Source: Halorhabdus sp. BNX81 (lineage in GTDB: Archaea > Halobacteriota > Halobacteria > Halobacteriales > Haloarculaceae). From it: a stretch of 64,000 bases of DNA. How positions within the stretch are numbered: the stretch's first letter is position 1; each line of letters opens with the position of its first letter. This document shows positions 33,545 through 49,280 of this stretch, piece after piece. The notes beneath the pieces are model-generated. The model saw only the letters and a program-made list of their open reading frames with translations. It searched no databases and was not told the DNA's origin. The stretch is taken from NCBI RefSeq assembly GCF_029229925.1, contig NZ_CP107254.1:372001-436000 (forward strand). The letters run 5' to 3'. A program made the position numbers and the translations under genes.

Positions 33545-34141
33545 ATGCCGGTCATCGAGTGCGACCCGGCGGCCGCCCGCGAACGGCTGGAAGCCGCGGG
33601 CATCGCCGTCGAGTCGGGCAACACCGATCACGAGCGCTGGCGGGCCGAGTCCGATGGAGCGACCGCCGTCGCCTACGACGGGAAAGTCGTCGTGCAGGGC
33701 AGCGATCCCGGGAAACTGACCGCGGTCCTGACCGACGAGGGCGGGCGCGCGCACGTCTACGTCGACGGGGCCTCGCGTGGCAACCCCGGCCCGGCGGCCA
33801 TCGGCTGGGTGATTCTCACCGGCGACGGCGGCATCGTCACCGAGGGGGGCAAACGCATCGGCTCGACGACCAACAACCGCGCGGAGTACGAGGCGCTGAT
33901 TCACGCGCTGGAAATCGCCGCCGACTACGGCTTCGATTCCGTCGAAGTCCGCAGTGACTCCGAACTGGCCGTCCGCCAGGTTCGCGGTGAGTGGGACACC
34001 AACGATCCCGACCTCCGCGAGCGCCGCGTCCGGGTGCGGGAACTGTTTCGCGAATTCGACGACTGGTCGATCGAACACGTCCCCCGGGAGATCAACGAGC
34101 GCGCCGATTCACTCGCCAACGAGGCGTTCGAGGATGGGTAA
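33545..34141 (+). CDS. rnhA: Ribonuclease HI
   Basis: A 198-residue RNase HI, which degrades RNA in RNA/DNA hybrids. The catalytic carboxylates are D74 (YVDGAS), E114 (NRAEYEAL), D138 (RSDSEL) and D188 (ERADSLA). About 65 residues precede the catalytic domain, as in other haloarchaeal forms. The last 22 bp of the gene are duplicated in tandem, and the copy provides the ribosome-binding site and start of the next gene. Confidence 0.93.
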   Translation: MPVIECDPAAARERLEAAGIAVESGNTDHERWRAESDGATAVAYDGKVVVQGSDPGKLTAVLTDEGGRAHVYVDGASRGNPGPAAIGWVILTGDGGIVTEGGKRIGSTTNNRAEYEALIHALEIAADYGFDSVEVRSDSELAVRQVRGEWDTNDPDLRERRVRVRELFREFDDWSIEHVPREINERADSLANEAFEDG

Positions 34142-34164
34142 GGAGGCGTTCGAGGATGGCTGAG
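34121..34164 (+). repeat. Tandem 22-bp duplication of the rnhA 3' end
   Basis: 34121-34142 (GAGGCGTTCGAGGATGGGTA + AG) is repeated directly at 34143-34164 with two differences. The junction forms AAGGAGG at 34140-34146, and the second copy contains the ATG (34156) of the downstream gene, in the ATGGCTGAG that corresponds to the last codons of rnhA. Confidence 0.9.
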
Positions 34165-34767
34165 GGAGATTCGACAGACAGCGATACGACAGCCGGTGAC
34201 CTCCCGGCCGACGTGATCGAGACAGTCGAGCGACTCACCCGCCACGCGCGTCGCGCCGACGAGGAACGCGCCACGGGGCTTCGGGACCGCCGTGACGAAC
34301 TGCTGGCCGACCACGGCTTCGAGGCGCGCATCCGCTCGGAACGCGACGGCGACGTGCTGGTGTGTTATCCGACGGAATGGCTCGACGACGGGGAGGTCGT
34401 GCTCGATCGGATCGACGACCGTTCGCGCGCGGTCGAGCGCCCGCTCGACCCCGAAACCGACGCGGACTGGGAGACCGTCGACGCCGACAACCGCGCTGTC
34501 GTCGACGCGGTTGCGGAACGCCACGGCTCGGTCCGCGCCGCGAACGTGGCGGCGTTCGCCGACTTCATGAGCAACCATCACGCACTGCGGATCGCCGACG
34601 CGACCGCCGATCACGTCGCCGAGTTTCGTGCGGAATACTTCCCGCGCAACGCCTTCCCCGACGACGAGCAGCGTGCGGTCCTCACGGAGTCACTCGAACA
34701 CGCGTTCGAAGTCGTCGACGGCGAGTGTCCGTCGATCGACCGCGAGGCCAACGGCTATGACGTGTGA
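34156..34767 (+). CDS. Uncharacterised rnhA-operon protein
   Basis: A 203-residue acidic soluble protein that follows rnhA after 14 bp; this pair is conserved in haloarchaea, where the second gene is simply named rnhA operon protein. There is a helical N terminus (VIETVERLTRHARRADEERA), a beta region (VLVCYPTEWLDDGEVV) and a C-terminal helical part. A PTEW-LDDGEVVLDRIDD segment looks conserved. The start is ATG 34156 behind AAGGAGG. The role is unknown; an involvement in RNA or DNA metabolism is inferred from its neighbour. Confidence 0.8.
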   Translation: MAEGDSTDSDTTAGDLPADVIETVERLTRHARRADEERATGLRDRRDELLADHGFEARIRSERDGDVLVCYPTEWLDDGEVVLDRIDDRSRAVERPLDPETDADWETVDADNRAVVDAVAERHGSVRAANVAAFADFMSNHHALRIADATADHVAEFRAEYFPRNAFPDDEQRAVLTESLEHAFEVVDGECPSIDREANGYDV

Positions 34768-47558: not shown

Positions 47559-49280
47559 ATGACTGACCCCGCGGCTCTCACTGTCACGATCGTCGATGGC
47601 TACGTCGACGAACCGGCACACTTCGGGGTGCCACCATACATCTCCACGTATCCTCGCTACGTCGCCGGCGCGCTGGTCGATGCAGGCGTTCCCCACGAGT
47701 CGATCACCTATCACACGATCGACGGTCTCCGCGAGGAAAATTGCCGCTGGCAGGCGGTCGAAGAAGCCGATCTGACGGTCTACGTCGGCGGGATGACCGT
47801 CCCCGGTAACTACGTCGGCGGGACGCCGGCCGAACCCGACGAAGTTCGGCGGATCGCCTGGACGGCCGACGGGACGACCATTTTGGGCGGCCCGGTCCGG
47901 TTCGGTGTCGGTGACGAAAACGAGGGGGCGAGCGAACCCGAACGCGACGATCTGGACTTCGACTTTCTGGCCGGTGCGGACATCGAGGCGGCCGTTTTCG
48001 ATCTCGTCGAGAATGGCCTGGAAGGATTCGAGCCCCGCTATCGCACGATGGCCGAATCCTCACGCTGGGCGCGTGAGGGGGCGTTTATCGTCGAACAGCA
48101 TCCCAACCACCCCGAGTATCTCATCTGCGAGATCGAGACCGGGCGCGGGTGTGCCTACCGGTGTTCGTTCTGTACCGAACCGCTCTATGGCGACGCTTCC
48201 TTCCGGGAACCGAACGCGATCATCAGCGAGGTCGACGCACTTTCCGACCACGGGGTCGTGAACTTTCGGCTTGGCCGGCAGGCCGACATCCTCGCGTACG
48301 GCGGCGACGGCGAAGCCCCGAACCCAGACGCCCTCCGGAAGTTGTACGGTGGCATCCGCGAGGTCGCGCCCGATCTGGAGACGCTGCATCTCGACAATAT
48401 GAACCCGATCACGGTCGTGAAGTGGCCTGAAAAGGCCCGCGAGGGTATCCGGATCATCGCCGAGCACAACACGCCCGGCGACACCGCGGCCTTCGGCGTC
48501 GAGTCGGCCGATCCCGCCGTACAAAGTGACAACAACCTCAACGTCACCGCCGACGAGGCCTTCGAAGCGGTCCGGATCGTCAACGAGGAAGGGGGGTTTC
48601 GACCGGGAGCACGGAGCGAAGCGCCCGGAACCGGGCCGTCGACGGCTGCAGACGCCCGCGGCCTGCCGAAGCTCCTGCCCGGGATCAACTTCGTCCACGG
48701 GTTGAAAGGCGAGACAGCGGAGACGTTCGAACACAACAAGCGGTTCCTCGAGCGGATTCTCGACGAGGGACTCATGATCCGGCGGGTCAACATTCGCCAG
48801 GTCATGGCGTTCCCGGGGACCGAGATGGACGAGACGGGTGCCGAGATCGCGCAGGACCACAGTGAGTTATTCCAGCAGTACAAACGCGAGGTCCGCGAGG
48901 AGATCGACAACCCCATGCTCCAGCGGGTCGCACCCCCGGGGACGGTTCTCGAAGACGTGCATCTCGAATACCACCAGGACGGCAAGACCTTCGGCCGGCA
49001 GTTGGGAACCTACCCCCTGCTCGTTGGCATTCCGGGCGAACGCCCGCTCGGGAAGACGATCGACGTGGCGATCACCGACCACGGGTATCGCTCTGTGACG
49101 GGTGTGCCCCACCCACTCGACCTCAACGCGGCGTCGATGGACGAACTCCAGGCGTTGCCCGGGATCGGGTCACAGACTGCGGGGAACATCATCGTCGGAC
49201 GGCCCTACGACGCACCGCCGGCCATCGAGGGTGTCGACTTCGAGGCGTTCACCACGATCGGACGTGAGTCGCCGCGTTAG
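47559..49280 (+). CDS. Radical SAM protein with C-terminal helix-hairpin-helix (COG1031)
   Basis: A 573-residue radical SAM protein. The N-terminal 190 residues form a B12-binding-like Rossmann region (VTIVDGYVDEPAHFG), the cluster motif is CAYRCSFC, and the C terminus has an HhH unit (LNAASMDELQALPGIGSQTA). The family is conserved in archaea, with an unknown substrate; the HhH suggests a nucleic-acid substrate. A low-complexity insertion, RPGARSEAPGTGPSTAADA, at about residues 350-370 is encoded by a hairpin with the loop GAGCGAAGCG. ATG 47559 (MTDPAALTVT) is chosen as the start. Confidence 0.85.
   Translation: MTDPAALTVTIVDGYVDEPAHFGVPPYISTYPRYVAGALVDAGVPHESITYHTIDGLREENCRWQAVEEADLTVYVGGMTVPGNYVGGTPAEPDEVRRIAWTADGTTILGGPVRFGVGDENEGASEPERDDLDFDFLAGADIEAAVFDLVENGLEGFEPRYRTMAESSRWAREGAFIVEQHPNHPEYLICEIETGRGCAYRCSFCTEPLYGDASFREPNAIISEVDALSDHGVVNFRLGRQADILAYGGDGEAPNPDALRKLYGGIREVAPDLETLHLDNMNPITVVKWPEKAREGIRIIAEHNTPGDTAAFGVESADPAVQSDNNLNVTADEAFEAVRIVNEEGGFRPGARSEAPGTGPSTAADARGLPKLLPGINFVHGLKGETAETFEHNKRFLERILDEGLMIRRVNIRQVMAFPGTEMDETGAEIAQDHSELFQQYKREVREEIDNPMLQRVAPPGTVLEDVHLEYHQDGKTFGRQLGTYPLLVGIPGERPLGKTIDVAITDHGYRSVTGVPHPLDLNAASMDELQALPGIGSQTAGNIIVGRPYDAPPAIEGVDFEAFTTIGRESPR

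Follow-up and report, generated by a model that had tools for sequence, protein, structure and literature searches.

The window analysed here, a 64,000-nucleotide stretch of the haloarchaeon Halorhabdus sp. BNX81, carries a gene for a haloarchaeal ribonuclease HI (rnhA) followed on the same strand by a DUF7108 gene, with a short tandem repeat at the junction between the two (Table 1). The rnhA product scores 354.9 bits against the NCBIfam model NF041306 (cut-off 300) over residues 1–197 of 198, which places it in that family, and it also matches the Pfam families RVT_3 and RNase_H. The downstream protein contains both DUF7108 domains, PF23418 at 109.8 bits and PF23420 at 121.2 bits (cut-offs 27), and we take it to be the product named "rnhA operon protein". 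Its tblastn alignments begin at residue 1 in the sister species G006 (locus L004) and in the next closest relative G005 (locus L005), and ATG 34156, which a first-pass annotation had given as the start of the gene, holds up as the most likely one. Elsewhere in the same genome lies a second, distant RNase H-like gene (L002, G000:C1:2127634-2127924), with 48% identity over 98 residues.

Table 1. Features at the rnhA/DUF7108 junction, in window coordinates.
Feature	Position	Strand	Remarks
rnhA, haloarchaeal RNase HI, 198 aa	33545..34141	+	stop TAA 34139-34141; ORF, NCBIfam, Pfam
Copy 1 of 22-bp unit, GAGGCGTTCGAGGATGGGTAAG	34121..34142	+	rnhA end and old DUF7108 start ATG 34134-34136
Mini-ORF, ATG...TGA, MGKEAFEDG	34134..34163	+	translation; made by duplication
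AAGGAGG, Shine-Dalgarno-like site	34140..34146	+	at copy junction, overlaps rnhA stop; 9 nt before ATG 34156
Copy 2 of 22-bp unit, GAGGCGTTCGAGGATGGCTGAG	34143..34164	+	present DUF7108 start; identical to G005 single copy
DUF7108 gene, 203 aa	34156..34767	+	start ATG 34156, stop TGA 34765-34767

Direct reading and a repeat finder both confirmed the repeat. The 17 bases GAGGCGTTCGAGGATGG recur exactly at a spacing of 22 (34121-34137 and 34143-34159), and the repeat finder returned 22-base copies at 34118-34139 and 34140-34161 that match at 20 of 22 positions; in the register of the first-pass annotation (34121-34142 and 34143-34164), the 17 exact bases are followed by two differences in five. 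That annotation had described the last 22 bp of rnhA as tandemly duplicated, and the duplication is where it was placed, with the count off by one: the unit comprises the final 21 bases of rnhA, including the stop, and one further base. Read from 34118, the junction runs AAC GAG GCG TTC GAG GAT GGG TAA to the end of rnhA, then GGAGGCGTTCGAGG, then ATG GCT GAG at the start of the DUF7108 gene, and the AAGGAGG reported at the copy junction is indeed found there. The repeat is absent from the output of Tandem Repeats Finder at a score of 30. An assembly artefact is ruled out, as the sister species G006 has the same duplication.

The window has two exact repeats 13 nt or longer at a spacing of 12-60, namely the junction repeat and a 14-mer at 47780, and simulated windows contained 0.17-0.5 such repeats each (Markov models of order 1, 3 and 5, 12 windows each). 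An exact repeat of at least 17 nt at this spacing was found in none of the 36 simulations. A survey of 464 kb of the same genome (the window plus 400 kb of sampled sequence, with CRISPR set aside) yielded eight non-CRISPR exact repeats of at least 14 nt at spacings of 10-80, and together the simulations and this survey rule out a chance repeat. The spacing is divisible by three in seven of the eight, as expected within genes; the junction repeat, at 22, is the sole exception. A 19-mer spanning the junction occurs once in the genome (G000) with up to two mismatches allowed, and the junction repeat is not found at several genomic places in the manner of MIRU-like elements. Near the end of one sampled stretch we also observed a CRISPR array (L092:19445-19900, about G000:C1 199445-199900) with the 30-nt repeat GTTTCAGACGGACCCTCGTGGGGTTGAAGC at a period of 65/66.

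Across 84 related loci (294,604 bases) the same kind of search gave 17 repeat entries, some arrays being entered more than once. Seven of these 17, from the four loci L023, L029, L031 and L070, have spacings not divisible by three, and frame-breaking short tandem repeats are therefore not unknown near haloarchaeal genes. In Haloferacaceae archaeon XH8 (L031:1290-1442) an exact 34-bp unit is present in about 4.5 copies roughly 60 bp before rnhA begins, and in Natrarchaeobius chitinivorans (L023:227-285) a 22-bp unit, equal in period to the window repeat and unrelated to it in sequence, is present in about 2.6 copies well upstream of rnhA.

A DUF7108 relative adjoins rnhA at all 87 rnhA loci examined, giving 85 distinct junctions once two loci repeating a genome are removed (L006 and L009, taken as the genomes of L012 and L010 from their identical junctions and identities). 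The rows L003, at the same place as the window's own L001, and L002, the distant RNase H-like gene described above, were also left out, and at every locus a script called the start codon on the basis of frame and position. At 74 of the 85 junctions the DUF7108 start lies inside the rnhA tail, with overlaps of 8 nt (57 junctions), 14 nt (nine), 11 nt (six), 17 nt (one) and 4 nt (one). Ten junctions have a gap instead, including those of the window and G006, and L023, with no assignable start, was counted neither as overlap nor as gap. Two Halosimplex genomes (L061 and L071) lost the overlap by another route, their rnhA-tail ATG being altered and their starts lying 4 and 22 bases past the stop.

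Within the genus, five of seven genomes keep the overlap (ATGGCTGA or ATGACTGA; the junction of L007, L008, L010 and L012 is ATGACTGA), and two, the window genome and G006, carry the duplication, reading ATGGGTAAGGAGGCGTTC..ATGGCTGAG in the junction alignment. G005 reads ATGGCTGAGGGAG, with no repeat, and its DUF7108 ATG sits in the rnhA codons GAT GGC, ahead of the rnhA stop. The −8 nt overlap class, in which the downstream start lies within the upstream gene (ATGNNTGA/ATGNNTAA), does not extend to the two carriers, which have a 14-nt gap. Among 293 genomes of the order, only G000 and G006 contain the exact junction-spanning 19-mer. Visual inspection and a repeat scan showed no such duplication at any of the other 83 distinct junctions; the scan (at least 14 exact bases) misses G006's own copy, with its two substitutions, and weaker old duplications could escape it.

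In a DNA tree of rnhA and DUF7108 from the seven genomes of the genus, built with the repeat region removed, both carriers form one clade (99/99) and G005 comes next; a 16-row protein tree lacked the resolution to group the carriers. Adjacent copies in G000 and G006, and a single copy in G005 and the outgroups, identify a short tandem duplication, and one such event on the branch leading to the window genome and G006 explains everything. These comparisons establish the ancestry and the polarity of the repeat.

Two sets of boundaries fit the duplicated unit equally well, AAC..GGCT and GAGG..TGAG, each with two mismatches. With GAGG..TGAG, AGGAGG arises directly at the junction and is accompanied by two later changes, GGC to GGG and TGA to TAA, both silent in rnhA; with AAC..GGCT, a later C-to-G change made AGGAGG. 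The stronger Shine-Dalgarno (SD) site therefore came either with the duplication itself or after one later base change. Both proteins are unchanged because the unit included the stop of rnhA as well as the start of DUF7108: rnhA runs through copy 1 to a stop directly after the same final glycine, and the DUF7108 gene retains its ATG and everything downstream in copy 2. Of 2,090 tandem duplications simulated at the L005 junction, 574 preserve both proteins with the start codon within the unit, and these occur in all three length classes. A stop-start overlap thus tolerates insertions that would break a gene a few codons upstream.

Two things changed with the event: the genes, once overlapping by 8 nt, came to lie 14 nt apart, and the SD site was altered. 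The genome's own 16S rRNA gene ends in GGATCACCTCCT. In most relatives the rnhA codons provide a GAGG that lies nine bases ahead of the start, and in the duplication carriers this has become AGGAGG with the register unchanged. The window's site has a duplex energy of −10.0 kcal/mol, against −5.9 kcal/mol for that GAGG, and of the 84 junctions compared only L049 has a lower energy than the window. Since the ATG is present in the relatives' single-copy tails, the copied segment brought with it an existing start codon and a weak SD (GAGG). The first-pass annotation had the repeat build the ribosome-binding site; the junction does yield AAGGAGG, but the weak GAGG predates the copy. RNA folding gave no clear message, with a predicted openness of 0.19 for ATG 34156 versus 0.35 for the L005 ATG, and of 0.80 for the SD in the window versus 0.46 in L005.

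Work on H. volcanii bears on both changes. Reinitiation efficiency in reporters is given as 40-60% at 13/14-nt gaps and as abolished at 22-23 nt (PMC10666635), and removing the SD cut reinitiation in six of seven pairs, with one pair rising (PMC6728339). Distal operon genes are enriched in SD motifs at a distance of 4-6 nt (8-mer count) upstream (PMC3986360), and by our own reckoning GGAGG with its 9-nt spacer matches the 6-nt peak of that study. A stronger SD need not give more initiation, because the same study describes the SD as playing no part in initiation at a 5'-UTR in H. volcanii (PMC3986360).

We consider it highly probable that a single 22-bp duplication across the 8-nt rnhA/DUF7108 overlap kept both proteins and left a 14-nt gap with a stronger SD. 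The ancestor of the window genome and G006 would have had rnhA and DUF7108 overlapping by 8 nt (ATGGCTGA), and a single 22-bp tandem duplication there, its unit spanning stop and start, would have converted the overlap to a 14-nt gap and GAGG to AGGAGG. Most likely, DUF7108 would still be fed by ribosomes that have just finished rnhA, by termination-reinitiation in a weakened form, to which the stronger SD would contribute. The start at 34156 in vivo, the mode of initiation and any selective value are our inferences.

The duplication may instead be a neutral indel, either because most DUF7108 translation uses a separate leaderless transcript or because so small a change has no consequence, a reading that we hold to be possible without favouring it. 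The majority of haloarchaeal transcripts are described as leaderless (PMC3986360), and the frame-breaking repeats near rnhA at L023, L029, L031 and L070 imply that indels of this type are unremarkable outside reading frames. However, the 14-nt gap is too short for a terminator and a promoter, although a promoter inside rnhA is possible, and the H. volcanii reporters react strongly to gaps of this kind (PMC10666635).

The duplication also created a mini-ORF with an 8-nt overlap at each end: its ATG, the old DUF7108 start, overlaps the rnhA stop (ATGGGTAA), and its stop (TGA 34161-34163) overlaps the present DUF7108 start (ATGGCTGA). Because 22 is of the form 3n+1, the frame opened at ATG 34134 continues in copy 2 in what had been the rnhA frame, giving nine codons with the SD of the next gene inside; in G006 the mini-ORF is also open and reads MGKEAFGNG. 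In sequence it has the layout of a BCD-like mini-cistron, a short ORF with an SD whose stop overlaps the next start. Ribosomes terminating on rnhA might restart at ATG 34134, make the 9-residue peptide and restart again at ATG 34156, in which case the duplication would have doubled a coupling device rather than breaking it, with AAGGAGG placed within the mini-cistron. We regard this relay as somewhat unlikely. The two 8-nt overlaps and the frame open in both species are consistent with it, and a review describes short ORFs that feed ribosomes to a coupled gene, as well as the mycobacterial MIRU, mobile repeats whose insertion brings in an ORF spaced at −4 (PMC12548453). However, 206 of 208 protein-preserving 3n+1 duplications simulated at the L005 junction yield such a mini-ORF mechanically, so finding one is not evidence of selection, and the two substitutions that alone separate the species in copy 2 both alter the peptide. 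It is also doubtful that stop-start tandem duplication is a general protein-neutral route by which operons exchange coupling through an overlap for a two-step relay or for initiation driven by the SD; were this true, one 3n+1 event would copy a coupling device and insert a translated nine-codon mini-cistron with the proteins kept.

That the repeat created both the ribosome-binding site and the start codon of DUF7108, as the first-pass annotation had proposed, is very improbable. AAGGAGG and ATG 34156 do lie within the repeat, and the GAGG..TGAG boundaries give AGGAGG directly, but all five other members of the genus examined have the rnhA-tail ATG without the repeat, starting the same protein, and GAGG at the same spacing was scored in each of them. 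A start codon built by copying the rnhA tail is ruled out by the position of the ATG inside rnhA in 74 of the 85 distinct junctions: single-copy relatives start at the same ATG, and the comparison returned in G005 a genome that lacks the repeat and has the same start, the very finding that the first-pass annotation had named as contradicting its proposal. Direct repeats are readily lost by slippage, which would favour an ancestral two-copy state reduced to one copy in the relatives, but this has a negligible probability, being ruled out by the DNA tree, in which the carriers are nested within the genus, and finding the repeat at 0 of 83 other distinct junctions.

A single duplication across the overlap, the reading we prefer, has no counterpart that we found in open-licence PMC text on tandem duplication of stop-start overlaps, and one model of how gene overlaps originate treats start- or stop-codon loss, with indels outside its simulation (PMC3887535). 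The locus is a clear single-branch case in which a duplication parts an overlapping pair at no protein cost and renews a translation signal. The rnhA/DUF7108 overlap was undone in one step with the proteins untouched, sister species stand on either side of the event, and the locus amounts to a natural experiment on how translation is coupled, though one of limited interest.

In bicistronic design (BCD), the SD of a gene lies inside a short leader cistron, and the stop of that cistron overlaps the start of the gene. The mini-ORF has the same layout, but BCD is engineered, whereas the mini-ORF is a duplication by-product fed by a long upstream gene. The MIRU elements, the nearest parallel to the mini-ORF that we met in the literature, are alike in placing extra DNA at a start/stop junction, with a short ORF coupled to the next gene and expression suffering little (PMC12548453); they are mobile and repeated with a −4 nt spacing, whereas in the window, which is archaeal, one duplication took place locally and its overlaps are of −8 nt. 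SD sites are most frequent where genes lie 9-15 bp apart, and there they sit in the spacer (Palleja 2009, PMC2784483), a pattern that the window's 14-nt gap and SD fit; that pattern is statistical, whereas the window records one event shifting a pair from the overlap class into the 9-15 bp class. A further close system is that of the overlapping unidirectional gene pairs of H. volcanii, which use termination-reinitiation (Huber 2019, PMC6728339; Huber 2023, PMC10666635) and include 62 pairs of the −8 nt class (PMC10666635), the class of the window's relatives. The 14-nt gap of the window equals the artificial 13/14-nt constructs made in that species (PMC10666635), but it came from an evolutionary tandem duplication with an SD gain, whereas theirs came from introduced stop codons. 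The locus is thus a natural counterpart of the H. volcanii 13/14-nt reporters, and it opens to testing what replaces coupling after an overlap is lost.
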